Shown: piece by piece, positions 18,073 to 60,356 of the stretch
Layout: each line of letters begins with the position of its first letter
Position numbering within the stretch: the first letter of the stretch is position 1
Assembly: GCA_947258755.1 (NCBI GenBank)
Contig: CAMYJO010000001.1
Location: 1 to 64,000, forward strand
From: an uncultured Gammaproteobacteria bacterium
Lineage (GTDB): Bacteria > Pseudomonadota > Gammaproteobacteria > JAADHQ01
DNA: 64,000 nt
Direction of reading: 5' to 3'
The notes under the pieces: generated by a model
Told to the model about the DNA's origin: nothing
Databases searched by the model: none
Seen by the model: the letters and a program-made list of their open reading frames with translations, nothing else
Made by a program: the position numbers and the translations under genes

Positions 18073-18966
18073 ATGTCTAAAAAACATCCCGTTGTCGCAG
18101 TCACTGGTTCATCCGGTGCCGGCACCACTACAGTTAAGGTTGCATTCGAACATATTTTCAGACGTGAGGGCATTAATCCGGTTGTTGTCGAGGGCGATAG
18201 TTTTCATCGCTATGACAGGGCAGCCATGAAAGGTGCTATCGAGGAATTTGCTGCTAAAGGCAAGCAATTGAGTCACTTTGGTCCAGATTCCAACCTGTTT
18301 AACAAGATCGAAGAACTGTTCAAACAATACGGCGAATCAGGAACCGGCACCAAGCGTTACTATTTGCATAGTGAAGAAGAAGCAGACGAGCATAATGCCC
18401 GCCTCAACACTGAGCTTGGTCCCGGTCAGTTCACTCCCTGGGAAGATATTTCGGCCGGTAGTGACCTGCTTTTTTATGAAGGACTGCATGGCGGCGTCGT
18501 CACCGAAGACGCGAATGTTGCCAAGTATGTTGACTTGCTGATTGGTGTTGTACCTATCGTCAATCTGGAATGGATACAGAAAATTTTCCGCGATAATGCC
18601 CAGCGTGGTTATAGCGCCGAGGCCATCGTCGATACCATTCTGCGTCGTATGCCAGATTATGTAAATTACATCACACCACAATTTTCGCGCACGGACATCA
18701 ATTTCCAACGTGTACCCACTGTCGATACATCCAATCCATTCATCGCGCGTGATATCCCCACGCCGGATGAAAGCTTCGTTGTTATTCGCTTTCGCGATCC
18801 AGCGAAATTCAGTGTCGACTTCCCTTACCTGCTCAGCATGCTGGATAATTCATTTATGTCCAGACGCAATACCATTGTGGTTCCGGGCAGCAAAATGGGT
18901 TTTGCCATGGAGATTATTCTGGCGCCAATCATTGAACAAATTTTGGCGGAAAAGCGACAATCTTAA
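18073..18966 (+). CDS. prk: Phosphoribulokinase (class I, proteobacterial)
   Basis: The enzyme phosphorylates ribulose 5-phosphate to ribulose 1,5-bisphosphate, the committed step of the Calvin cycle beside RuBisCO. The 297-residue sequence has the class I P-loop (GSSGAGTTTVK), the VEGDSFHRYDR substrate loop, YEGLHGG and the C-terminal VPGSKMGFAMEII. Length and motifs match proteobacterial hexa- or octameric enzymes. A strong GGAG lies before the ATG, and an intrinsic terminator follows. No RuBisCO, cbbR or other Calvin gene is adjacent, so it is transcribed alone. This is the best evidence for autotrophy in the window. Confidence 0.95.
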   Translation: MSKKHPVVAVTGSSGAGTTTVKVAFEHIFRREGINPVVVEGDSFHRYDRAAMKGAIEEFAAKGKQLSHFGPDSNLFNKIEELFKQYGESGTGTKRYYLHSEEEADEHNARLNTELGPGQFTPWEDISAGSDLLFYEGLHGGVVTEDANVAKYVDLLIGVVPIVNLEWIQKIFRDNAQRGYSAEAIVDTILRRMPDYVNYITPQFSRTDINFQRVPTVDTSNPFIARDIPTPDESFVVIRFRDPAKFSVDFPYLLSMLDNSFMSRRNTIVVPGSKMGFAMEIILAPIIEQILAEKRQS

Positions 18967-20932: not shown

Positions 20933-21301
20933 CTATTGATCGGCCGACGGAACCCCATTCCCATCAAATTCCACAAGCAAATTACCGCGTAACAGCTTGA
21001 ATGGCTCTTTTTTCAAAGACTCGCCTTTACAAGGCCCGGAAACACACAGGCCGTCCTCAATCCTGAACAAGGCATGATGAGTGGAACACTGAATATGTGT
21101 TTTATCCAGGTTTAGGAATTGCTCAGGCATCCAATCCAACGGCGCGCCGGTATGCGGGCAGCTATTCTGATAGAGGACTATCTGAGCGTCCTTGCAAACC
21201 GCAAAGACCTCTCTGCTAAAGCGACCATCGGCAAGCCTGAATGTCCTGCACTCGCCATCACCCAGCTCAGCAATGTTGAGCAAGACGGTTTCTTTTTTCA
21301 T
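20933..21301 (-). CDS. Rieske [2Fe-2S] protein, small ferredoxin-like
   Basis: The Rieske cluster ligands are clear: Cys48-Pro-His50 (SCPHTGAPLDW) and Cys72-Ser-Thr-His75 (CSTHHALF). The 122-residue protein has no signal peptide or membrane helix, so it is a soluble Rieske ferredoxin of the type that feeds oxygenases or acts as a small redox adaptor. The start at 21301 overlaps the stop of the sugar kinase by 4 bases (ATGA), hence translational coupling. An upstream extension to 21388 was rejected. It is the last gene of a unit that begins with the 1756-residue protein. Confidence 0.85.
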   Translation of the reverse strand: MKKETVLLNIAELGDGECRTFRLADGRFSREVFAVCKDAQIVLYQNSCPHTGAPLDWMPEQFLNLDKTHIQCSTHHALFRIEDGLCVSGPCKGESLKKEPFKLLRGNLLVEFDGNGVPSADQ

Positions 21302-22176
21302 TGCTGCTCCTCGACAACACCTGCGAATCCATACTGCATACACTTCCTGGCCGCCAGTTTGCAGGCAGCTTGTAAACCCTGCTGACACTCAAGCCCGCTT
21401 AAATTTGCATCTATGACGCCGGCATTAAAGGCATCACCTGCACCGACCGTATCAACCACTTCGATATCCTGTTGCGCCTGTGCATGTGACAACATACCCT
21501 GACGATCTATGGCATACGCCCCGCCCTTACCCCAGGCGCAATAAAGTACGATATCGGGGTGTAGTCTATGCATCTCACCCAGGAACGCGCTCGCATCATT
21601 AAAACCCGCATGCTGTGCATAGCCTTTAGAAAAAATCAGAATATCGGCATAAGCAAACAAACGTTCTATATCCTGACGTGGTTTTTCGATCTCGATAGAT
21701 ACCTTGTTCGGAAAGTTTGATGCTCGCATATACTCAAGCATCACGATCGTTTGTTCTACATTACGGCCTTCGAAATGCAGCCAGTCATACTCATTGATAT
21801 CAACAGACTTAAAATCGGCAAAGGAATATTCACGTACATCCCGGTAATGCACAATACTGCGCTTTCCTGAACCCTGTGCAAGGGTGATACAGGACAATGG
21901 TGATGAGGATTGATGCTGTACAACGGCATGATCGATATTGATATCATTTTTCATCAGGTCATCACGAATAAAGTCAGCGTATAGATCATCTGCCAACACC
22001 CCGGCCCAACTGCATTGATAGCCCAACGCCGCAAGCAGCACCAGGGTATTACTGGCATTACCGCCACGCCTTATCGACTGCTCCTGCGCGCGCACTTCCT
22101 CATCTTCACCCGGGTAATGCTCTACCGTATTGATGATATCGACTGTGGCTATGCCTACTGCAAGGATCTTATTCAT
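21298..22176 (-). CDS. PfkB-family carbohydrate kinase (ketohexokinase-like)
   Basis: This ribokinase-fold enzyme phosphorylates a sugar or nucleoside with ATP. It has the N-terminal GGNASNT signature (RRGGNASNTLVLLAALG) and the anion-hole motif DTVGAGDAFNAG, whose last Asp is the catalytic base. The sequence between resembles ketohexokinase-like members (HFEGRNVEQT; SIEIEKPRQDIERL). The substrate cannot be fixed. Length (292) is normal. It lies 121 bp downstream of the giant CNB-rhodanese gene and overlaps the Rieske gene. Confidence 0.85.
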   Translation of the reverse strand: MNKILAVGIATVDIINTVEHYPGEDEEVRAQEQSIRRGGNASNTLVLLAALGYQCSWAGVLADDLYADFIRDDLMKNDINIDHAVVQHQSSSPLSCITLAQGSGKRSIVHYRDVREYSFADFKSVDINEYDWLHFEGRNVEQTIVMLEYMRASNFPNKVSIEIEKPRQDIERLFAYADILIFSKGYAQHAGFNDASAFLGEMHRLHPDIVLYCAWGKGGAYAIDRQGMLSHAQAQQDIEVVDTVGAGDAFNAGVIDANLSGLECQQGLQAACKLAARKCMQYGFAGVVEEQQ

Positions 22177-22297: not shown

Positions 22298-25200
22298 CTA
22301 ACGTGAACGTACTACACGGAAACCAATCTGGTCCACCGCCTTATCAGCAGCGAACTCGCTACGCACGCTGGCTCTGATCTCCTCGATAGGACTAAGATAA
22401 GAGCCGCCGCGGACAACATGCTGACTACAGCCAATTTGTGACCAGCTGCTGCCATCATTTGGCGCGCCTTCAAAGTTCGGACGATAACAATCAGTGACCC
22501 ATTCTTTAACATTACCAGACATATCGTGCAAACCCAGTGTACTGGCCTTAAAGTTGCCTACCGGGGCTGTACTGACACTATCCCATTGACTGCCACAATC
22601 GAAACAATTTGCGCGATTGGATATATACTCAGCACCCCACCAGTATTTTTCTTTCGAGCCTGCGCGCGCAGCATATTCCCATTCAGCCTCACTGGGCAAG
22701 CGATACCAATGCCCTGTCTGGTCCGACAACCAACGGGTGTAGGCCATTGCATCTTCCCAACTCACATTGATGACCGGGCGTTTACCACGACCCCAACCAT
22801 TATCAGAGGGGAGGGGCCGGTCCGTATCCTCAGCAAAACGATCATACTCATCAAAACTGACTTCATATTTCGCAATTGAGAATTTTCTGAGCGACACCTG
22901 GTGCTGCGGTCTTTCATTAAAATGTACAGAATTGTCCGGACTGCCCATTGTAAAGCTACCTCCGGGCACACCTACCATGACCGGGCCATTCCCACCAGAT
23001 TGCAGAAAATCGCTGTATACACGAGTAGGCTTCAGGGCTTTTTGTTGCGCACGGCTAACATTGATCTTTCCGATATTTTTCTTAGCTGCAGCAACTACCT
23101 TCTTCGGAACTATCGGTGCAGCATTCGGTTTACTATTAACCTTGGCAATAGTAGATGGTTTAACACTAGAATCTGTTTTAATTTTAGCAACAGCTGGCTT
23201 GTCATCTTCTGTCACTGCTAACGTATCATTGCTGCGACTTTCCGCGTTCATGACAAAATACCAGTACACAGCACCGGCAGATAACAGTGAAAATAGCATC
23301 ACCAGTATTAGCGTCATCATAGTGTTACTTTTACGTACCACTTTGGCGCCATCAGCATTAAACAGGTTCTTATCAATATCGGGCAAGTTAAACAGGGTTG
23401 AATTTTCCTGTAATACAGACTTACTGCCTTCTTCTTCAACAGCGGAATCATTGCCTGTCGGTAAATGCCCGTCTCTTACCGCCTGTTCTTGCTGCTGATA
23501 AAGCTTCTGCAACTCATCGCGCAAGCGCTCATTATCTTTTCTTAGCTCACTGGATTCGCCCTCGTGTCCTGACTTATACTGCTCCAGTTGATTTTCCATA
23601 TCATGCTTGAGCTGCTCCATTTTTTTATTAAAATCCTGCTCCAGGTTTGACTGCTTGAGCTGACGTATCTCTGCCTCAAGCCCCTTGATCTTGACCTGTG
23701 ATTGCTCCAGTTCAGCCTGGTTATCCATGTCATGTTCAGTAATACGCCAGGTCTTCTGTTCTTCTCTTAATTTTTCCAGCTCAAGTTGCAACTGCTGAAT
23801 CTGCGCTTCCCCTGCTTGTAATGACTGCCGGTAATCGTCGCATTCGCCATGCAACTTCCCCATCTCCTCTTCCATGACCTTAAAGGCAGACTCAGCATCG
23901 CTACGCAGGGTATTTTCATTCATCACCTGCTTTTCATGCTCAATCAATAAATTGTCTTTTTCCTGCAGACCCTTTTCCAGTCCAAGGATGATTTCCTTGC
24001 TTTCAATTTCTGACTGTTCAAACCGCTCTCTTACTAATTTAAGCTCTTCCTCCGCTGCCCGCCTTTCCTTATCAGAGTCACCATCCTTATGCTTATAACT
24101 TTCCACTTCCTGTTTTGATGATAGCAACTCATCCTGCAAAATCATTAACGCTGTTTCTTTTTCAGCAAATGCAGCTCGCAATGTATCCAGCTCACGTTGC
24201 ACTTCATCACTCTCGCTGGATTTTTCTGCCAGCACACTGGAATTTTCCAGTAATTTATTCTCGGCGTCATCAAGCGAGTCTCTGAGCAAGCGCAACTCAT
24301 CATGCAAGGCTTCATCACTCGCGCCCGATTCCATTTTTGTATTAATCTTAACGAGCTCTTCAATACGTTTTTGCGCTTGCTGATATCTTTCATCAACCGC
24401 AGCACGTTCGATTTTTTGCAGCTCTAGTGCCTGACGGTACTCTATTATTTTATCTTCTTGTTCTTGCTCAGAAACACCATGCTGTTCCTGCATGGCTTGC
24501 AACTCATTATTGAGTGCCTGCAAATCTGTTTCCAGTTGCTGCCTGACTCCCTGCCCCTGCTCCAGCTCCAACTGGTACTGCTGCACCTTCGTATCGAGTT
24601 GCAGTTTGGCACTTTCGGACATTTCTAATTTGTCATGGACTGCGCGTAATGCCGCCTCCAGATCATTGATTTTTGCCAGACTTTGCTGACCCTGCTCTTC
24701 AGCATGCGCCCTCTCTGCCAGTAACTTCGCCTCATAATCCTCAACTGTGCTCTTGAGCTTGTCTAGCTCCTGAGCCTGCTCTTCATTTATTTTGTTAGAG
24801 GATGATAACTGCGCTTGTAAATCAGACTCCATTGAGCCCTGTTGTTGCTTTAAGGCCTCGTGCTCAGATTGCATAGCACTGAGCTTTTCCTGATGCGACA
24901 GGATTTGCTGCTCTAAGGCTTGTTTTTCAGCCTGGTACATTGCCTCATAATCAGCAGATCTTTCCTTAAGTGCGTTGACCTCTGCATCCAACAGTCTGCG
25001 CGCATCTCCATGCTCGGCCAATTGCGACATCAGCTCTGCCTCGCGCGCCTCACTATCTTTTACCGTGGACTGCAACTCGGATTCCAGCTTGCTGATTGAT
25101 TGCTGATATTCCTGTTGCTGCTGAGCAAACGAACTTTTTTCACCATTAAGAGTCTGCAACTCGGCCTGCAACTGCTGCTGTTTCTTTTCCAATTCAATGG

Positions 25201-27568
25201 TATGCGCGCGATGCTCTTCGCCAGCTTTCGCCAACTCAGCTTCCAGGGCCTTAATATTTTCAAGCCCGTCACCCTTTTCCAAATCCCTTGCCTTCTTCAG
25301 GCTAACGAGATTTGACTCGGCTTCTTGCAACTGACTATTGAGCACATTAATTTCTGACTCGAGCTTTTCGCGCTGCTGCTCTGAAGTCTGCAGCTTGTCT
25401 TGCATTTGACGAGTACTTTCCTTGCTTTCACCAAGGATCGTCTCTTTTTCATCTGCGCGCTGCTTTAATTCTATTTCAAGCGTTCCAATACGGGCCGCAG
25501 AAGACTGCAACTCTTTTTCTATACAGTCCTTCTGTTCGCTGACTTCCCGCATTTGCTGTTGTAGGTCCGTTGTTTCCTGCAATCTGGCTTGGCTTTCCTG
25601 CTCGATCTTTTCCTGTAAAGATTCCACCTCAGCACTTCGTGTTGCCGTACCAGACTGCAACTGCTCGACTTGCTGACGCTGGCCTTCAAGCGCCTGATTG
25701 GCTTCGAGAACCTTATTTTCAAGCTTTAGCTGCGCATCTATTTTCTCCTGCAACTGATCTTGCAATGTTTCCCGTTGCTGCCGCTCTTGTTGCAATTCAC
25801 GCTCAAGGCCAGACTTGCTATCTCGTAGTTCATTCAGCGACTCACGTAACTTGCCAATTTCTTCATTCAACGATGCCACACTGGCATTAACGTTTTCACC
25901 CAGCGCTTCTTTTTCACGCTCGATAGTCTCAAGTTTCTGTTCTAAATTATTTCTTTCAGATTTCAACCCAGACATTTCTGTACGCAGGGCTTCCAGCTCA
26001 CTTAAACTGGTATTATGCTGTGCTTGTATTGCTGCCGAATCTGCCACAGCACTGTGAAGCTCCTGCTCCAGCGCTGCTATTCTCTGCTCCTGTGTTTTTA
26101 GGGTTTTTTGTGCATTTTCGTCTGACTGCTGGGCAGACATCAGGACTACGTCTTGCTTTAGTGCGGCAGCTTGCAATTCCTCTAATTGCCGCTTAAAACC
26201 ACCCGACTCGACCTCCAGTTCACGCAACCCATCTAGCTCATCTTCCAGGCCCTTAACCCTGACCTGCTCGGCGCGCACGGATTCAAGTGTCTGCTCGAGC
26301 TCCGCCTCCTGTTGCGCTATTTTCTGCTCTGATTCCGAAATTTTATTTTTCAGTGCATCGACTTCGGTAGACAATTCACTAACATTACCTTCCAGCTTGT
26401 TTTTTTCGTTTTTTACTTCATTCAGCTCTTCAAGCAAATATTTATTACTGTCGTCTTCTTTTTTTGCTCTGTTGATATCGATAACTTCTGCATTTTCCGC
26501 TTCTTTTTCCTTGATAGGTGCGTAGTTTTCCAAAGGCACATTACTGAGCCCATCTTTTAACACATGCGCATCTATACCAAACTGCCCCAATAGAAATACA
26601 GCACTGGTACTACGCCTCCCGGTATCACAATAGGCGATATATTCTTTATCTCGATCAATGGAGGTTATTTCACTACGAATAGCTGCCAAAGGTATATTGA
26701 TGCTACCCTCTAAATGGGCATTGCCATATTCACCCGGAAGGCGCACATCCAGGAAAATGGCGCCATTTTCAAGTTTCTGTATCGATTCCTCATAGTTTAG
26801 CTGACTTAATAAGGGCGCTTTCAAAAGTTCGTTAAAATCTTTTTTCGCCAGGCGCATCATTTTTCCATTGGTCAACATCGTAACCGATGCATTACGCTTG
26901 GCTCCAGACAACAGGGATTCCTCACCGAAGCTATCACCGTCCTTCAATTCTGCCAGCTTCACTTCGCGCGCGTTGGCTGACGGCTTGCGACTGACGATAC
27001 AAGTACCTTCTTTGATAATGTAATAAAAATCGCCTTCATCGTTTTGATTGACGATCACTTCACTGGCCTTGACCTCAATCTCCTCCATTCGCATGAATAG
27101 TTGCTGCAGGTTATTGGCAGGAAGTTTCTGCAGCAATTCAGACTGCATCATGCGCGTCATCCAGTCCTCATCATCGGACTCGTAATCATCAACTGCATAA
27201 CTGCTTGTCTGCTCATAGGCCAGCATCACATCCAACAAACCTGAATCGATGCTTACAATCGTACAACGACTTTTAGCACGGGCGCCGAGTTGCCTGGGTT
27301 GTTGTGCCGCAATCGGATGCTTGGCTTCCTCAGTACCACCCTCGATAGTCAACTTGATATCACTGCCATCGACCAGGGCGATCTCGCCTGCAAGGATGAA
27401 GCAGGTGGAATTGTCCCGCTCGCCTTTCTTAAATAAATATTTTCCCGGCTTCAGCTCAAGAATAGTGGCCTTCTTCGCCAACTCCTCAAAATGCGTCGCT
27501 GACAGGCCATTTAATGGCACTAGGTTTTTAAGCGATTTCTTATCCGCCAGTTTTGGCACTGCACTCAT
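22298..27568 (-). CDS. 1756-residue CNB-CNB-rhodanese-coiled coil-TM-SUMF1-like protein
   Basis: One uninterrupted frame. Order seen: degenerate cyclic-nucleotide-binding domain (residues 10-115), a second, better conserved one (140-250, with FGEESLLSGAKRNASV as phosphate cassette), rhodanese domain (260-352, catalytic Cys314 in AYCDTGRRST), a Gln/Glu/Leu/Lys-rich coiled coil (about 370-1360), one membrane helix (1416-1440) after a Lys/Arg stretch, a Lys/Pro linker, and a SUMF1/formylglycine-enzyme-like domain (1525-1754: VGVPGGSFTMGSP, RLPSEAEWEYAAR, GNVKEW, VVRGGSY). The Cys pair of active formylglycine enzymes after RGGS is absent (LSPIEEIRASVR), so a binding or structural role is likelier. 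Topology: N-terminus inside, SUMF1-like domain in the periplasm. CNB-rhodanese proteins of about 360 residues exist in this bacterial group as I recall; this long fusion I do not know. It lies upstream of the kinase and Rieske genes. Confidence 0.88.
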   Translation of the reverse strand: MSAVPKLADKKSLKNLVPLNGLSATHFEELAKKATILELKPGKYLFKKGERDNSTCFILAGEIALVDGSDIKLTIEGGTEEAKHPIAAQQPRQLGARAKSRCTIVSIDSGLLDVMLAYEQTSSYAVDDYESDDEDWMTRMMQSELLQKLPANNLQQLFMRMEEIEVKASEVIVNQNDEGDFYYIIKEGTCIVSRKPSANAREVKLAELKDGDSFGEESLLSGAKRNASVTMLTNGKMMRLAKKDFNELLKAPLLSQLNYEESIQKLENGAIFLDVRLPGEYGNAHLEGSINIPLAAIRSEITSIDRDKEYIAYCDTGRRSTSAVFLLGQFGIDAHVLKDGLSNVPLENYAPIKEKEAENAEVIDINRAKKEDDSNKYLLEELNEVKNEKNKLEGNVSELSTEVDALKNKISESEQKIAQQEAELEQTLESVRAEQVRVKGLEDELDGLRELEVESGGFKRQLEELQAAALKQDVVLMSAQQSDENAQKTLKTQEQRIAALEQELHSAVADSAAIQAQHNTSLSELEALRTEMSGLKSERNNLEQKLETIEREKEALGENVNASVASLNEEIGKLRESLNELRDSKSGLERELQQERQQRETLQDQLQEKIDAQLKLENKVLEANQALEGQRQQVEQLQSGTATRSAEVESLQEKIEQESQARLQETTDLQQQMREVSEQKDCIEKELQSSAARIGTLEIELKQRADEKETILGESKESTRQMQDKLQTSEQQREKLESEINVLNSQLQEAESNLVSLKKARDLEKGDGLENIKALEAELAKAGEEHRAHTIELEKKQQQLQAELQTLNGEKSSFAQQQQEYQQSISKLESELQSTVKDSEAREAELMSQLAEHGDARRLLDAEVNALKERSADYEAMYQAEKQALEQQILSHQEKLSAMQSEHEALKQQQGSMESDLQAQLSSSNKINEEQAQELDKLKSTVEDYEAKLLAERAHAEEQGQQSLAKINDLEAALRAVHDKLEMSESAKLQLDTKVQQYQLELEQGQGVRQQLETDLQALNNELQAMQEQHGVSEQEQEDKIIEYRQALELQKIERAAVDERYQQAQKRIEELVKINTKMESGASDEALHDELRLLRDSLDDAENKLLENSSVLAEKSSESDEVQRELDTLRAAFAEKETALMILQDELLSSKQEVESYKHKDGDSDKERRAAEEELKLVRERFEQSEIESKEIILGLEKGLQEKDNLLIEHEKQVMNENTLRSDAESAFKVMEEEMGKLHGECDDYRQSLQAGEAQIQQLQLELEKLREEQKTWRITEHDMDNQAELEQSQVKIKGLEAEIRQLKQSNLEQDFNKKMEQLKHDMENQLEQYKSGHEGESSELRKDNERLRDELQKLYQQQEQAVRDGHLPTGNDSAVEEEGSKSVLQENSTLFNLPDIDKNLFNADGAKVVRKSNTMMTLILVMLFSLLSAGAVYWYFVMNAESRSNDTLAVTEDDKPAVAKIKTDSSVKPSTIAKVNSKPNAAPIVPKKVVAAAKKNIGKINVSRAQQKALKPTRVYSDFLQSGGNGPVMVGVPGGSFTMGSPDNSVHFNERPQHQVSLRKFSIAKYEVSFDEYDRFAEDTDRPLPSDNGWGRGKRPVINVSWEDAMAYTRWLSDQTGHWYRLPSEAEWEYAARAGSKEKYWWGAEYISNRANCFDCGSQWDSVSTAPVGNFKASTLGLHDMSGNVKEWVTDCYRPNFEGAPNDGSSWSQIGCSQHVVRGGSYLSPIEEIRASVRSEFAADKAVDQIGFRVVRSR

Positions 27569-35337: not shown

Positions 35338-36093
35338 ATGGACTATAGTTCACAGCTGCTTTTATTCATCATATCCCTGATAGCCAATGTGTTTTCCGCT
35401 TTTTCCGGCGGTGGCGCTGGCCTCATACAGCTACCGGTATTGCTATTTCTGGGCCTGCCATTCTCGGTTGCCCTGGCGACCCACAAGGTCGCCAGCGTCG
35501 CCCTCGGTATTGGCGCTACCCTGCGCCATCTTAAGGAAAACACGCTCGAACGCCGCTTTACATTATTCATACTCGCCACCGGACTGCCCGGTGTCATCGT
35601 CGGTGCCAATCTCATTCTGAACATCCCTGATCAGTACGCCAAACTGGCCTTGGGTATCCTGATCATGGGGCTCGGCATTTATTCCAGCCTGAACCGCGAG
35701 CTGGGACAACACTATCAACCACAACAGCGAGACGCCTATGGTTATGTTATCGGCGGCCTGGTGCTTTTTTTAATAGGCTGCCTGAATGGCTCACTAACTT
35801 CTGGCACTGGACTGTTTGTGACCTTATGGCTGGTGCGCTGGTTCGGCCTGGATTACAAGCGTGCCGTCGCTTATACCCTGGTTCTGGTAGGTTTGTTCTG
35901 GAATGGCACCGGTGCCCTGACCCTCGGCATACTCACCCGCATTCAATGGGACTGGCTACCGGCGCTATTACTAGGCTCGCTATTGGGTGGTTATATCGGC
36001 GCCCACCTGTCGATTACCAAAGGTAACAGACTGATTAAAAGGACCTTTGAAATCATTACCATCCTGCTTGGTATCAAGCTGATCCTCGGCTGA
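35338..36093 (+). CDS. TauE/SafE family membrane transporter
   Basis: The 251-residue membrane protein has about 8 helices in two halves and the family motifs (AFSGGGAGLIQLPVLL and ATHKVASVALG in the first half; GSLTSGTGLFVTL and KRAVAYTL in the second). TauE/SafE proteins export anions such as sulfite, sulfoacetate or related organosulfur compounds. In a presumed sulfur oxidiser sulfite export is plausible; substrate is inference. It converges with pyrE at a gap of 8 bp. Confidence 0.8.
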   Translation: MDYSSQLLLFIISLIANVFSAFSGGGAGLIQLPVLLFLGLPFSVALATHKVASVALGIGATLRHLKENTLERRFTLFILATGLPGVIVGANLILNIPDQYAKLALGILIMGLGIYSSLNRELGQHYQPQQRDAYGYVIGGLVLFLIGCLNGSLTSGTGLFVTLWLVRWFGLDYKRAVAYTLVLVGLFWNGTGALTLGILTRIQWDWLPALLLGSLLGGYIGAHLSITKGNRLIKRTFEIITILLGIKLILG

Positions 36094-39574: not shown

Positions 39575-41575
39575 TCAAGTCCTGCTCAGCACCAGGTTAG
39601 CAAATTCGTCTTTATAGCATTGCCAGCCCGGGGCGACATAAGTCGTTGAAACCTCTTCCAACACCAGCGCTGGCCCGTGCAGGTATTGATCGCAACCGAG
39701 TTCAGCCCGCCAGTACACCGGCACCGCAGCGCTAATGCCTGCCAGTGCTACCTGACGGCAGGGCTCGGCCCTGGCTGCCTGTGCGCAACCCGGCAATACC
39801 ACATCCGGCTCAGGCCCGGCGACCGCTACCCGGATATTAACCAGTTCGATAGGCTCGTTCAGGGCGTGGCCGTAGATCCGTTCGTGCTGCGCATGAAAGT
39901 CCTGCTGGCACTGAAGCAAATCCGCCGCATCCGGATCGACATCGACATTCAGGTAGTAAGACTGGCCGATATATCGTAGATCCATGCTGCATGTCACCAT
40001 CATAGCGGCCGATTGCAGCCCCTCTTGATCCATTTCAGCAGTGCCATGCTCGATAAGTCGTTGATAATAGCCGAGCAGACGCTGCCGATTTAGGTCTTGC
40101 AGGGGCATGGTCAGGGTTTGCGAGTAGTGCCGGCTCATGGGTGCGACCAACATCCCCAGTGCCGATAACACCCCGGCATGCGCTGGCACCAGCGCCTGCT
40201 GCATTTGCATGGCCTCGGCCAATGCACACACATGCAGACCACCGGCCCCTCCGAACGAGGTCAGCACATAGTCGCGTGGGTCGCATCCACGGTGCAGGGA
40301 AATCACCCTGAGCGCACGCACCATATGTTCATTGGCCAGATCGACAATCCCCTGCGCGGCTTGTTCGGTGCCCATATGCATCGCCGTTGCCAGCGTCGAC
40401 AGCGCAACACGGGCGGCCTCGATATCGAGCTGCATACGCCCGCCGAGAAAGGCATCGGCCTGGAGTCGCCCGAGAATCAGATTGGCATCAGTGACGGTGG
40501 GACGCTCTCCACCCTGACCATAGCAGGCAGGCCCCGGACTCGCACCTGCGGATTCCGGGCCGACATGCAGCATGCCACCATCATCGAGATAGGCGATTGA
40601 GCCGCCGCCGGCACCAATGGTATGCATATCAACCATCGGCACTGCGACCGGAAAATCACCAATGCTGCCTTCCGAGGTCAGACTGATGCGCCCATCAACC
40701 AGGGCCACATCCGTTGACGTGCCACCCATATCAAAGGTCAACAGGCGTGCTTGCGACAGCTGCTTGCCGATATGTTGCGCCGCCATCAATCCACCAGCCG
40801 GTCCGGATAACAACATGTTGACTGCCAGCCGACCGGCCTTGGACGCGCTGACGGTACCGGCAGAACTCTGCATCACAGCTACGCGTGCAGGTGTCACGGC
40901 CTGTTCAAGCCGTTGCAGATAACCCTGCAACAAAGGCCCGACATAGGCATTCAACCAGGTGGCGATTCCGCGCTCATATTCCCTGTATTCGGGCAATACC
41001 GTCGATGAACAGGCAACAAACAAATCATCCGGCAAGGCTGCGGCGATACGTTGCTCAAGACTCGGATCCAGATAGGAAAATAACAGGTTCACAGCCACCG
41101 CCTGTGGCTGTAGCTGTTGTATTTGCGCGCATAGCGTATCGATATCTTCGGCCGTCAAGGGCTCCAGCACAGCGCCTTGCGCCGACAAGCGCCCACCCGT
41201 CTCCAGACAAAGTTCGGCAGCAACAGGTGGGGATGTTAACGGCGGTTGCAGATCATAGAGTGACTGACGCGCCTGCCGCCCGATTGTTAAAATATCGCCA
41301 AAACCACGATTGCCAATATATACCGTGCGCACACCCCGGCGCTGTAATACGGCATTGGTGGCCACAGTAGAACCATGCACAATCTGCAATTCGGCCAGTG
41401 ATAAACCCAACTCGGTAATGCCCTGCAAAATGGCTTGCTCGGGAGCCTCTGGTGTCGATAGCACCTTGTGCACTCGGACCTGGCCGTTCTGGTAGTGGAT
41501 AAAATCGGTAAAGGTACCGCCGGTATCAATCCCGAGCAGTGACGACACAGTTCCGGCCACGATCTTTGGCTTCAT
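39575..41575 (-). CDS. Hydantoinase/oxoprolinase family protein (HyuA-like)
   Basis: The N-terminal ASKHA-type ATPase fold begins LLGIDTGGTFTDFIHY, then VHGSTVATNAVLQRRG, TFDMGGTSTDVALV and TIGAGGGSIA, the hallmarks of hydantoinase A / 5-oxoprolinase subunit A. These enzymes open hydantoins or 5-oxoproline using ATP, normally with a HyuB subunit; none is adjacent here. A related N-methylhydantoinase or carboxylase role is possible. The start at 41575 (MKPKIVAG) is preferred over one at 41722, whose 49 extra residues overlap the GGDEF gene in another frame. The gene still overlaps the GGDEF gene by 50 bases. Length 666. Confidence 0.82.
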   Translation of the reverse strand: MKPKIVAGTVSSLLGIDTGGTFTDFIHYQNGQVRVHKVLSTPEAPEQAILQGITELGLSLAELQIVHGSTVATNAVLQRRGVRTVYIGNRGFGDILTIGRQARQSLYDLQPPLTSPPVAAELCLETGGRLSAQGAVLEPLTAEDIDTLCAQIQQLQPQAVAVNLLFSYLDPSLEQRIAAALPDDLFVACSSTVLPEYREYERGIATWLNAYVGPLLQGYLQRLEQAVTPARVAVMQSSAGTVSASKAGRLAVNMLLSGPAGGLMAAQHIGKQLSQARLLTFDMGGTSTDVALVDGRISLTSEGSIGDFPVAVPMVDMHTIGAGGGSIAYLDDGGMLHVGPESAGASPGPACYGQGGERPTVTDANLILGRLQADAFLGGRMQLDIEAARVALSTLATAMHMGTEQAAQGIVDLANEHMVRALRVISLHRGCDPRDYVLTSFGGAGGLHVCALAEAMQMQQALVPAHAGVLSALGMLVAPMSRHYSQTLTMPLQDLNRQRLLGYYQRLIEHGTAEMDQEGLQSAAMMVTCSMDLRYIGQSYYLNVDVDPDAADLLQCQQDFHAQHERIYGHALNEPIELVNIRVAVAGPEPDVVLPGCAQAARAEPCRQVALAGISAAVPVYWRAELGCDQYLHGPALVLEEVSTTYVAPGWQCYKDEFANLVLSRT

Positions 41576-42611
41576 ATAATGCCTTGTCCGCTCGTTCAAA
41601 CAGACTCTCTGCAGTATCAGAACTCGTGGCCCCAGCCAGCCCCTGACTAAGGGTGATACTAATTTCCTGGCCATTGGCGTTATAGGGAGCGTCAGCGATA
41701 TGCGCGCGTATACGCTCGGCAATCTGCTCGGCCTGCTGACGACTTTTATTGATCAGTAGAATAGAAAATTCCTCGCCACCGTAGCGGCCGACCATATCGG
41801 TACCACGTAGCGACTGGCGGATACGCGCCGCCACACCCTTAAGCATGTAATCACCGGTGACATGCCCGTATTCATCATTGACACGTTTGAAAAAATCCAG
41901 GTCGGCCATAATCAGGTAGATGCCATGTTTATGTTTATCCAGATCAACCAACTCCCGCTGCAACCTCATTTTAACCACCTCGCGGTTGGGCAAGCCGGTT
42001 AGTGCATCGGTATTGGCTTTTTGCATTAACTGCATACGATCAGAGTGAATATTCCTGATTGAGTCCTCTAGATTGCTCACGTGAGAATCATGATAGGCCG
42101 TTATTGCCAGTGACATATCGAGACAGGAAATACGCTGAGCATAGCTCATCATCACCTGACGTTCCGCGTCATCAGCGATGACGCTGCAAATAATGCGAAG
42201 AAATATTTCCTGTAATATCCGGTACGCGGTCTGGTACAGACACAAGGACACACCCACCTTGAAATGCACCCATCCTATTTTCAGGCGCGCCTCAAAATAG
42301 GCCTGTGTATTAAATGACCTGCCAAGATTAGCCAGATACTCTGTCTGCGTCTTTTTCAGACCGGCCAGATCGACACGACCTTTGTGAATAATATGCATGA
42401 ATTCCGGCTTTCTCATCAACTCGACATAAAACTCGTCGACAATCTGCCCCAGCGAGGGATGTATGATCAAGTCCAGAAAACGTTCGGAATATTCGAGTTC
42501 CGTATCGCCCATATCCGTCAATAGCAGACGTTGCTCAATGGCCTCCTGGTTGAAGCCAAACAACGCACAATACGGATATTCTTCATTCATGGTTACGTTG
42601 TCATCGTTCAT
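41526..42611 (-). CDS. Globin-coupled diguanylate cyclase
   Basis: Residues about 25-170 form a protoglobin/globin-coupled-sensor domain: YSERFLDLIIHPSLG, then KIGWVHFKVGVSL with the likely proximal haem ligand His116. Residues 195-355 are a GGDEF domain with TDALTGLPNRE, the active GGEEF and the inhibitory RxxD site (RGTD) five residues before it. The haem sensor probably binds oxygen and tunes synthesis of c-di-GMP; DosC of Escherichia coli is the known example. The gene overlaps the hydantoinase-type gene. The start is AT-rich and lies 93 bp from mutM on the other strand. Confidence 0.9.
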   Translation of the reverse strand: MNDDNVTMNEEYPYCALFGFNQEAIEQRLLLTDMGDTELEYSERFLDLIIHPSLGQIVDEFYVELMRKPEFMHIIHKGRVDLAGLKKTQTEYLANLGRSFNTQAYFEARLKIGWVHFKVGVSLCLYQTAYRILQEIFLRIICSVIADDAERQVMMSYAQRISCLDMSLAITAYHDSHVSNLEDSIRNIHSDRMQLMQKANTDALTGLPNREVVKMRLQRELVDLDKHKHGIYLIMADLDFFKRVNDEYGHVTGDYMLKGVAARIRQSLRGTDMVGRYGGEEFSILLINKSRQQAEQIAERIRAHIADAPYNANGQEISITLSQGLAGATSSDTAESLFERADKALYEAKDRGRNCVVTARD

Positions 42612-56850: not shown

Positions 56851-57945
56851 CTAGTTAATGGATAAATTAATGGACGGAATAAGATCAGCATTGTTAACAA
56901 ACTGCTGGAACTGCTTCTTATCATTAGCATGGACGTAGGCATCGTCAGGGTCAATCTCCTTGTTTTTCAGCGCTTCCAATAAGGCCTGATCCATCAGTTG
57001 CATGCCTTTATCAGATCCGGTCTGCAGTACCGCTGGGATCTGGTGGATCTTACCACTCATGATCAGGCTGGAGATAGCCGGGACATTAACCATGACTTCA
57101 AGGATCGCTTTACGTGCACGACCATCGGCTGTGCGCACCAGTTTTTGACTAATGACGCCACGTAAATTCTGCGCCATAAACGTCGCGGTCTGCGCCTTCT
57201 GCTCGGTGGGCATGGCGTCAATAATTCTATCCAGCGACTTGATCGCTGAAGAGGTATGCAAGGTGCCTAAAACCAGATGTCCGGTTTCAGCGGCCATCAT
57301 CGCCAGTGACACTGTTTCCGAATCACGCAATTCGCCTACCAGTATAACATCCGGATCTTCACGCAGGGCCGAACGCAGGCCATCAGCGAAGGTTTCGACA
57401 TGGCGGCCGACTTCACGCTGCACGACCAGGGAAAGCTTGCTTTTATAGACAAACTCGACTGGGTCTTCAAGGGTGATGATATTCAGTCGACGATTACTGT
57501 TCAGATAATTGATCATCGCCGCCAGCGTCGTCGATTTACCGGTACCGGTCGTTCCGGTCACCAGCACCAGGCCATTATTGGTCTGGATCAGGCTCTCAAC
57601 GATTTTCGGCAGACCAAGATCCTCAAAGCTGGGGATGGTCGGTGCAATGACCCTGAAGGTAGCGCCAAGCCCCCCTACCTTGTGAAATACATTGACACGG
57701 AAACGACCCACTTCCGCATGCTCGTAGGAAAAATCGAGGTCTTCGCCATTATCACTGCGGGTCTTCATGTCCGGGGACATGATTTCGTAAAGTAGATCCT
57801 GTAATTCGGCAGCCGTCAGGTCACGATATTTTATCGGGTTTAACTCACCTAGCTGCCGCAGCAGCGGCGGCGCACCCACGGCGAAATGTATGTCGGAGCA
57901 ATTCTGCTCCCTGCCCAATTGTAGAAATGCGTTGATTCTCGACAT
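56851..57945 (-). CDS. PilT/PilU-family twitching ATPase, copy 2
   Basis: A paralogue of the preceding gene: INAFLQLGREQNCSDIHFAVG, Walker A GTTGTGKSTTLAA, LITLEDPVEF-like Asp box, Walker B DVILVGELRD and GTLHTSSAIK. The C-terminal stretch (AISSLIMSGK) also differs from canonical PilT. The ATG at 57945 overlaps the kinase stop codon (TGATG), which makes coupled translation likely; an upstream start at 58032 would lie inside the kinase gene. Length 364. Two PilT paralogues next to a Ser/Thr kinase suggest control of retraction or of a related machine. Confidence 0.87.
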   Translation of the reverse strand: MSRINAFLQLGREQNCSDIHFAVGAPPLLRQLGELNPIKYRDLTAAELQDLLYEIMSPDMKTRSDNGEDLDFSYEHAEVGRFRVNVFHKVGGLGATFRVIAPTIPSFEDLGLPKIVESLIQTNNGLVLVTGTTGTGKSTTLAAMINYLNSNRRLNIITLEDPVEFVYKSKLSLVVQREVGRHVETFADGLRSALREDPDVILVGELRDSETVSLAMMAAETGHLVLGTLHTSSAIKSLDRIIDAMPTEQKAQTATFMAQNLRGVISQKLVRTADGRARKAILEVMVNVPAISSLIMSGKIHQIPAVLQTGSDKGMQLMDQALLEALKNKEIDPDDAYVHANDKKQFQQFVNNADLIPSINLSIN

Positions 57946-60356
57946 CAGGACATGGTCTCCAGCAATAATTCGAGGTCTGCCGTTAACGCGGTAAATGTCT
58001 GATAGCGATTGGATGGTGACACCGCCATGCATTTGCGAATGATCGCCTCAAGTTTTTCCGGTATCTCTGCATTCAACTTTCTGGGAGGTGTCACCTTACC
58101 TTCAACATGTTTCAGCAAGGTCGACATCGGATCTTTTTCATCATACGGCGCACGCCCGGTAAAGATACGATACATAATAACACCCAGACTATAGATGTCA
58201 GTACGTGAATCGATATCTTCACCACGGGCCTGCTCCGGCGCCATATAGGTCGGCGTACCGACCAATATACCTGTCTTGGTAATACGGCCGTCCATATTCG
58301 ACGCTGCGGCGGCCAGCCCGAAATCCACTATTTTTACTTGATTATGATCATTGATCAGTATATTGGCCGGTTTTAAATCACGATGCACGACATTCACCTG
58401 CTGCGCTGTCGACATACCGCGACAAAGATCACGGGCGATCTTGACCATACGTTTCATATCGGTTATTGCACCGCTATCGAGCTCATCGGCAAGTGAATGA
58501 CTTTCAAAGTATTCCATCGAGATCGCATAGGACATACCAAATGTCAGGAAATCATAAATACGAATAATATTTTCATGGGTAACCTTACGCGCATAACGCA
58601 ACTCATGGGTAAAACGCTGCACCACTGATTCATCGCTGGCAAATGACGGATTCAGGAACTTGAGTATATACTTGTCATCAACCACCTTATCGTGCACCAG
58701 TATGACCGTGCCAAAACCACCCTTACCGACACGTTTGATCACCTGATAACGATCAGCAATGGAATCCCCCTCACGTAAGCGATCGGCATCTATCAGGGTG
58801 ACAGAGTGTTTGTCTTTCTCGGGCTTCTTGTTGAATTTAATCGCCGCCGAGCTCTTTTCTTCATTGCCGGCGTTGGGAACTGCTCGCTCGCCAAGTAAAT
58901 CCAGACTGGCGCGACTGATCACCTGGGTCCTGCCGGCAAAGCGGTCTGCCAAATCGGCAGCAGCATCACTGGCCAAGGCCTTAATCTCCGAATCGTCGAG
59001 CGTGATCATCTGGGTCATGGCCTGTTGCACCTGTTCAGCATTTTTATCATCCGCCAACTGCGACAATGCAGCAATGGCCTCTTTTTGCACAGAGGGATGA
59101 CTGGTGGTCATGGCCCTGATCAGGTCCTGCACGGAGTCACGGTCACCCAAACTGGCAAGGGCGCGTATCGCGACCTGCACAGTCTGCGGATCTTTATCCA
59201 ACAGTTCGCGCAGCGGCTTGACTGCTTTTTCATTACCCATCGAGGCAAGTGCATCTGCAGCGCGTTCGCGCACCCACCAGTCCTCATCCTTAAGCGCATT
59301 GACGAGGCTATCAAAGGCGCGTTCATCCTTGCTGGTATTCAATATCTCTACAGCGGTGCGGCGCAGGAATGGATCTTCATCTTTGATCAGTGCCAGCACT
59401 GCATCGACAACCCTGGGACCGCCGATAGAACCTAAGGCATCGGCGGAGCGCACCCGCACCCACCAGTCCTGATCACGTAAGGCCATCAGCAGGTCCTTGA
59501 TCGCACGCGTATCGCCCACTTCATTCAGAACTTCGACCGCAGCACGGCGGATATATTCGGATTCATCCTGCAGGTATTCGATCAGGAATTTAACGGTATT
59601 GGCATCATTCAGCTTTATCAGCACCTCAATGGCCTTGGACTGCACCATCAAGTCAGGGTCGCGCAACAACTTGCAGATGGTCTGGGTCGGCACCGGGATA
59701 TCCATCCCTGACAGCCCTTCAAGCGCTGCCATGCGTACATTCTTGTTCGGGTCCTTGAGCAATTGAAACAAGGCCGTCCTGATGGCCTCGCTGCTGAAGG
59801 CAGACATCAAGCGCACAACCCGGTAACGGGTATCCGGCGATTCGCTTCTAGAGTAGGTAATCAGGCTCGGCACCAGGTCTTCGCTGGCGGTCGATTGCAA
59901 TATCTTGAACACAGTCTGGCCCATGCTCGAGCTACCGCTGTGCAGCAGGTCAAGTAATTGGCGCTGATTGATCCTGGCTGCCTGCTGCTTGATGATGTCG
60001 ATAACGTATTCCTTGCGGATATCGTCACGATCAAGTACATCAATCATGAGATTGGCATCATACTTATCGGAGGTAGCCAGTACTCTTTTAATGACAGGTA
60101 CTGCCGAATGATCGTCCTCGGCCAGGGCATCAAGGTAATATCCGAGAGTTTTATCACTGACAAGCCCCTGTAACAGAGAATCAAATACCTCGGTATTGAC
60201 ACCTTCAGAAAGGGCGTCTATCAGCAAAGGCAAGGCTGGCTCGCCAATTTTCTTCAGCGTTATGCCCGCCTGAATGACGTCTGTGGCGGCAGGAGACACA
60301 GACGTCATGATAGTTGCGATCGCCTTTTTCGCTTTTACTGTATCGAAAAATCCCAT
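57945..60356 (-). CDS. HEAT-repeat Ser/Thr protein kinase
   Basis: Residues 1 to about 480 are HEAT/PBS-lyase-type helical repeats with a steady 31-residue spacing (KDEDWWVRERAADALASMG is one unit), a surface for protein partners. Residues 531-803 are a Hanks-type kinase: GKGGFGTV, Lys566 (YILKF), HRDLKPAN, DFGLA, GTPTYMAPEQ. All catalytic residues are present. No membrane helix follows, so it is a cytoplasmic kinase. It is co-transcribed with the PilT-like and FHA genes; substrates may be the PilT-like ATPases or the FHA protein linker. A PP2C phosphatase lies opposite. Confidence 0.9.
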   Translation of the reverse strand: MGFFDTVKAKKAIATIMTSVSPAATDVIQAGITLKKIGEPALPLLIDALSEGVNTEVFDSLLQGLVSDKTLGYYLDALAEDDHSAVPVIKRVLATSDKYDANLMIDVLDRDDIRKEYVIDIIKQQAARINQRQLLDLLHSGSSSMGQTVFKILQSTASEDLVPSLITYSRSESPDTRYRVVRLMSAFSSEAIRTALFQLLKDPNKNVRMAALEGLSGMDIPVPTQTICKLLRDPDLMVQSKAIEVLIKLNDANTVKFLIEYLQDESEYIRRAAVEVLNEVGDTRAIKDLLMALRDQDWWVRVRSADALGSIGGPRVVDAVLALIKDEDPFLRRTAVEILNTSKDERAFDSLVNALKDEDWWVRERAADALASMGNEKAVKPLRELLDKDPQTVQVAIRALASLGDRDSVQDLIRAMTTSHPSVQKEAIAALSQLADDKNAEQVQQAMTQMITLDDSEIKALASDAAADLADRFAGRTQVISRASLDLLGERAVPNAGNEEKSSAAIKFNKKPEKDKHSVTLIDADRLREGDSIADRYQVIKRVGKGGFGTVILVHDKVVDDKYILKFLNPSFASDESVVQRFTHELRYARKVTHENIIRIYDFLTFGMSYAISMEYFESHSLADELDSGAITDMKRMVKIARDLCRGMSTAQQVNVVHRDLKPANILINDHNQVKIVDFGLAAAASNMDGRITKTGILVGTPTYMAPEQARGEDIDSRTDIYSLGVIMYRIFTGRAPYDEKDPMSTLLKHVEGKVTPPRKLNAEIPEKLEAIIRKCMAVSPSNRYQTFTALTADLELLLETMS

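Follow-up and report, generated by a model that had tools for sequence, protein, structure and literature searches.

A conserved giant CNB-CNB-rhodanese-coiled coil-TM-SUMF1 protein found mainly in sulfur-oxidizing, CO2-fixing gammaproteobacteria

The 64,000-nucleotide stretch of gammaproteobacterial DNA analyzed here (the window) carries a long gene at 22298..27568 on the minus strand, a single uninterrupted frame (27568→22298, ATG at 27568) encoding a protein of 1756 amino acids. The coordinates and length given in a preliminary description of the locus are correct, and the strand, which it left unstated, is minus. Its domain identities are borne out by a Pfam profile search, which matched cNMP_binding (two stretches), Rhodanese, and FGE-sulfatase on the protein, together with three weak matches to eukaryotic coiled-coil models, all below cut-offs. 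Two further minus-strand genes lie downstream: a ketohexokinase-like PfkB kinase gene (21298..22176) begins 122 nt after the long gene, and a gene for a Rieske [2Fe-2S] protein (20933..21301) has an in-frame ATG at about 21301 that overlaps the PfkB stop. The kinase is close to human ketohexokinase (1.4e-66), and the C-x-H...C-x-x-H ligands of the small Rieske protein are intact in 21/22 homologs.

The protein begins with two cyclic nucleotide-binding (CNB) domains followed by a rhodanese domain (all coordinates of its parts refer to the minus strand). The better of the two cNMP_binding stretches (residues 164-250, 3.2e-22) falls in the second domain, CNB2 (residues about 136-253; 26810..27163), which is canonical: in its phosphate-binding cassette, GDSFGEESLLSGAKRNASV (residues 211-229; 26882..26938), F214, G215, E216, and R225 are present in 30/30 full-length proteins. 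The first domain, CNB1 (residues about 10-121; 27206..27541), is degenerate; it keeps the beta-roll and P91-R92 (P91 in 143/144 and R92 in 140/144 modules), but when searched for the FGE...R cassette it shows the P-R part without FGE, so conventional cNMP binding by CNB1 is improbable. The earlier claim of two cyclic-nucleotide domains stands, with the refinement that CNB1 is degenerate. The rhodanese domain (residues 263-343, Pfam 1.5e-12; 26540..26782) has the loop CDTGRRS, which fits CxxGxR[ST], with the active-site cysteine at Cys314 (26627-26629), as first described; this cysteine is kept in 29/30 full-length proteins. The loop arginine, Arg319, is found in 24/30 full-length proteins versus 74/74 short forms, so some full-length proteins may be under less constraint to act as sulfurtransferases. 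In a PDB profile search the head was nearest to the regulatory domains of PKG and PKA, and an AlphaFold model of the CNB-CNB-rhodanese part (pLDDT 81.6) matched PKA regulatory subunits in fold. The genome itself encodes several class III cyclase domains.

Behind the head extends a coiled-coil rod (residues about 360-1390; 23399..26491). Proline is almost absent from residues 361-1360, and entirely absent from about 391 to 1340, while E, K, R, and Q make up 34-56% of each 50-residue block. The heptad signal at period 3.5 reaches a power of 0.875, compared with 0.183±0.036 (maximum 0.299) in shuffled sequences; this periodicity and the proline and glycine content bear out the coiled coil of about 1000 residues proposed earlier. 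No internal repeats or duplication were found within the rod. Among relatives, the shortest rod has 319 residues and the longest 1248 (median 864), an almost four-fold spread that does not support a fixed ruler; since such a rod would also be a poor signal conduit, reach or dimerization seems a likelier function. The rod leads to a single transmembrane helix (residues 1416-1440; 23249..23323), the only hydrophobic helix detected, with its core at 1416-1434, an extension to about 1440, and the basic segment KVVRK ahead of it, as the preliminary description had stated. A Lys/Ala/Pro-rich linker, predicted to be periplasmic, follows (residues 1441-1502; 23063..23248). Net charge is higher on the N-terminal side of the helix in 21/28 informative cases (p=0.013), and this positive-inside bias, together with invariant cysteines in the C-terminal domain that fit an oxidizing compartment, gives good support, from the predicted protein sequences, to an N-in, C-out topology and hence to the cytoplasmic head and periplasmic C-terminal domain suggested earlier.

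The C-terminal domain (residues 1503-1756; 22301..23062) is SUMF1/FGE-like and belongs to the SUMF1-fold superfamily according to its Pfam FGE-sulfatase match (residues 1529-1754, 1.9e-60). Its nearest relative is PvdO, both among NCBIfam models and in a PDB profile search, in which PvdO (5hha) was the best match (2.7e-50). When the domain was aligned to the FGE structures 6muj and 2q17, no catalytic cysteines were found at the corresponding positions (GGSYLSPIEEIRASVRSEF); the cysteine pair of the GGSY...C....C segment is absent, as had been noted, and an active FGE is rejected. Four other cysteines, Cys1655, 1658, 1694, and 1714, are invariant in 31/31 SUMF1 domains, from which we infer a disulfide-bonded, periplasmic domain. 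Its AlphaFold model, built from six sequences only, was poor (pLDDT 61). Homologous SUMF1 domains that share the C-x-x-C and DC...C cysteine pattern stand C-terminal to a transmembrane helix in PP2C phosphatases (L045-L047), and one is apparently fused to a kinase (L053, where the locus holds only the kinase end and Pfam gave no confirmation). The domain thus serves signaling proteins as a portable envelope module.

Contig and whole-genome searches, following the census suggested in the preliminary description, verified 30 distinct proteins with the complete CNB-CNB-rhodanese-rod-TM-SUMF1 order, and a further case is split across two contig ends (G004, L026+L027). All three other genomes of the same genus that were examined show an identical domain order, and full-length proteins occur across many gammaproteobacterial families, 17 families in the sampled set; the recurrence in four species of one genus and in many other families rejects an assembly or annotation artefact. 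This is a real, conserved giant bacterial protein. An SMC-like protein was also considered and rejected, because ATPase heads are absent and the ends of the protein are CNB and SUMF1; SMC/Rad50 models of NCBIfam match the rod alone, far below cut-off. A variable protein of a diversity-generating retroelement (DGR) was likewise rejected, since its own genome contains no second copy of the gene's 3' end, which a template repeat would provide. No record of this domain order was found in the non-subscription literature searched. The earlier statement that no protein with this order had been described therefore holds as far as we could find, and the architecture seems undescribed, yet it is widespread and not singular.

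The N-terminal module has a wider distribution than the full-length protein. At E<=1e-70 its profile matched 165 of the 369 genomes sampled from the class, and in a thin draw over the phylum 9/9 module matches fell in the same class. The module also occurs as a stand-alone protein of 350 amino acids, as a CNB-CNB-rhodanese-rod protein of roughly 700-950 amino acids without a transmembrane helix, and, in the same genome as the long gene, on a SulP-STAS-CNB-CNB-rhodanese transporter (L042 9669-12473; G000:C1, about 115 kb); it is a portable cytoplasmic head. Some long relatives lack the TM-SUMF1 part (L061 and L063, the latter from Thiohalobacter thiocyanaticus). Full-length forms clustered strongly in a tree of 144 modules, where 25/30 fell in one 35-row group together with coiled-coil-only and contig-cut forms (SH-aLRT 94); the architecture is therefore old, with losses or a few separate gains.

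Among the 23 testable full-length loci, i.e., those with enough downstream sequence, PfkB lies downstream at 11 and Rieske at 13; both are present at 8/23 and at least one at 16/23. Neither gene was found beside a short form (0/58 loci), and the association of the long gene with PfkB and Rieske is specific to the long form. No description of this three-gene association was found in the literature searched, and no dsr or sox genes adjoining the long gene were identified.

Several other genes were seen around these loci. A Phosphoribulokinase/uridine-kinase family gene (18073-18966, plus strand) is a few kb away from the long gene in the window, and homologs occur near the long gene in L023-L025, L027, L028, L168, and L194; a TauE/SafE sulfite-exporter-family gene (35338-36093, plus strand) likewise has homologs near the long gene in L026, L059, and L062. 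A block encoding a GspA-like AAA/peptidoglycan-binding protein, TerB, and an HU-like DNA-binding protein recurs upstream of the long gene (L063, L061, L085, L088, L100, and L065). Two stand-alone module genes (L029 7774-8844 and L032 5301-6368) adjoin P-II and ammonium-transporter genes (amtB-glnB), which hints that the short form is connected with nitrogen. The window also encodes an 803-amino acid protein in which HEAT repeats precede a Ser/Thr protein kinase domain (57945-60356, minus strand) and a Protoglobin-GGDEF protein, a likely gas-sensing diguanylate cyclase (41526-42611, minus strand).

The genomes carrying the long form were compared with other genomes containing the module, a group of 136 that may include a few full-length carriers (carriers were taken among the matches listed), which would make the contrast conservative. 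RuBisCO was detected in 26/29 sampled carriers versus 88/136 other module genomes (p=0.0076), soxB in 24/29 versus 69/136 (p=0.0017), and dsrA in 23/29 versus 61/136 (p=0.00088), each with an odds ratio of 4.7, the p-values being optimistic since related genomes are not independent. Counted by family, RuBisCO was found in 17/17 carrier families versus 41/66. The dsrA enrichment was not significant once RuBisCO was given, so the safe statement is that carriers are lithoautotrophs, mostly sulfur oxidizers; four sampled carriers (G025, G172, G146, and G353) lack both dsrA and soxB. The genome studied here contains dsrA, soxB, and RuBisCO, and its RuBisCO gene (G000:C7 2030-4543) has a weak BMC-domain match nearby, though the genome has no CsoSCA. 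A role as a carboxysome tether is not supported, CsoSCA being found in 5/29 carriers versus 20/51 RuBisCO-positive controls. The long form is thus found mainly in sulfur-oxidizing, CO2-fixing gammaproteobacteria.

The reading that we favor, with a probability of roughly 40%, is that the protein may be a scaffold or receptor of sulfur lithoautotrophs that is anchored in the inner membrane, binds cNMP, and can carry persulfide. It would probably dimerize through the coiled coil; the disulfide-bonded SUMF1 domain would act in the periplasm as a ligand- or partner-binding anchor, and the head, held by the rod, would reach into the cytoplasm by as much as about 100-150 nm. Binding of cNMP at CNB2 and persulfidation of the rhodanese cysteine would alter what the head binds, and the head might thereby tie carbon or redox metabolism to the status of nucleotide and sulfane sulfur in sulfur-oxidizing autotrophs, possibly by way of the co-encoded ketohexokinase-like kinase and Rieske protein. 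The SulP-STAS transporter, a membrane protein to which the module is fused, sets a precedent for the module as a regulatory head. Several observations weaken the scaffold or receptor reading: not every full-length locus has PfkB and Rieske, rods differ in length, some long relatives lack TM-SUMF1, Arg319 is partly lost, and four carriers have neither dsrA nor soxB.

The variable rod and the fusions of homologous SUMF1 domains through a transmembrane helix to PP2C phosphatases, and apparently to a kinase, make outside-in signaling or simple anchoring serious alternatives to the inside-out sensor suggested earlier. The main rival concerns the direction of the signal: the periplasmic SUMF1 domain would sense a ligand, the cytoplasmic part would be the output, and the CNB-rhodanese head would merely tune it. 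The position of homologous SUMF1 domains behind the membrane helix of PP2C phosphatases, and apparently of a kinase (L053), fits such a receptor, but a conformational signal is poorly conducted by a rod several hundred residues long and, the rhodanese aside, there is no enzymatic output domain; we regard this alternative as possible, though rather unlikely.

A sulfur-relay tether, in which a membrane-held rhodanese would pass sulfane sulfur from oxidation in the envelope to cytoplasmic reverse-Dsr under a cNMP gate, could account for the enrichment of dsrA and soxB in carriers and for the near-invariant rhodanese cysteine. Reverse Dsr occurs without DsrEFH in Thiohalobacter (PMC6504805), whose relative of the protein lacks TM-SUMF1, and this also speaks for a relay. 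Against it stand the four sampled full-length carriers without dsrA and soxB, the partial loss of the loop arginine, the lack of TM-SUMF1 in the Thiohalobacter form itself, and the lack of identified dsr or sox neighbors, and we consider a relay improbable. A mainly structural role, as a long membrane-anchored coiled coil serving as a polar or division scaffold or as an organelle (carboxysome) tether, agrees with the low-proline rod of hundreds of residues in every full-length form and with the autotrophy of the carriers but is equally doubtful, because it leaves the strictly kept CNB2 cassette and rhodanese cysteine unexplained and, in its carboxysome version, conflicts with the CsoSCA counts and with the absence of CsoSCA from the protein's own genome.

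The scaffold or receptor reading can be taken further, to a regulatory tether of a new class that would span the envelope of sulfur lithoautotrophs: its head, reading cNMP and persulfide, would sit on a rod about 100-150 nm long, be anchored through the inner membrane to SUMF1 in the periplasm, and couple sulfur oxidation to carbon metabolism by controlling the ketohexokinase-like kinase and the Rieske protein encoded with it; in this full form we think it unlikely to be correct. On a single membrane-anchored rod, the protein nevertheless unites a sensor of second messengers with a sulfur-carrier domain, and it does so in environmentally important sulfur-oxidizing autotrophs, and its operon partners and taxonomic range lead to testable hypotheses on sulfur status, cyclic nucleotides, and carbon metabolism.

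All constituent domains were already known, and two neighboring architectures exist. The SulP-STAS transporter (L042) is likewise a membrane protein that bears the CNB-CNB-rhodanese module, with a transporter body replacing the rod, transmembrane helix, and SUMF1 domain. The PP2C-TM-SUMF1 membrane proteins (L045-L047) also join a cytoplasmic signaling part through a transmembrane helix to a homologous SUMF1 domain but have a PP2C phosphatase where the long protein has CNB-rhodanese-rod. The stand-alone 350-amino acid CNB-CNB-rhodanese proteins of Gammaproteobacteria are about 35-50% identical to the N-terminal module, and differ in lacking the rod, transmembrane helix, and SUMF1 domain as well as PfkB/Rieske neighbors (0/58). 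The PKA regulatory subunit and PKG resemble the head in their tandem CNB fold and, for CNB2, in the FGE...R cassette, whereas the long protein has no kinase, has a degenerate CNB1, and adds the rhodanese, rod, transmembrane helix, and SUMF1 domain. Family 2B encapsulin offers an analogy only: its CNB gave a weak NCBIfam match, but the long protein has no capsid fold; cysteine desulfurases, rhodaneses, and xylulose kinases have been described in Family 2 encapsulin operons (PMC8346489). At the other end of the protein, PvdO, FGE, and GldK-PorK share the SUMF1 family with the C-terminus, which differs from FGE in lacking the cysteine pair and from all three in being membrane-anchored on a giant rod.
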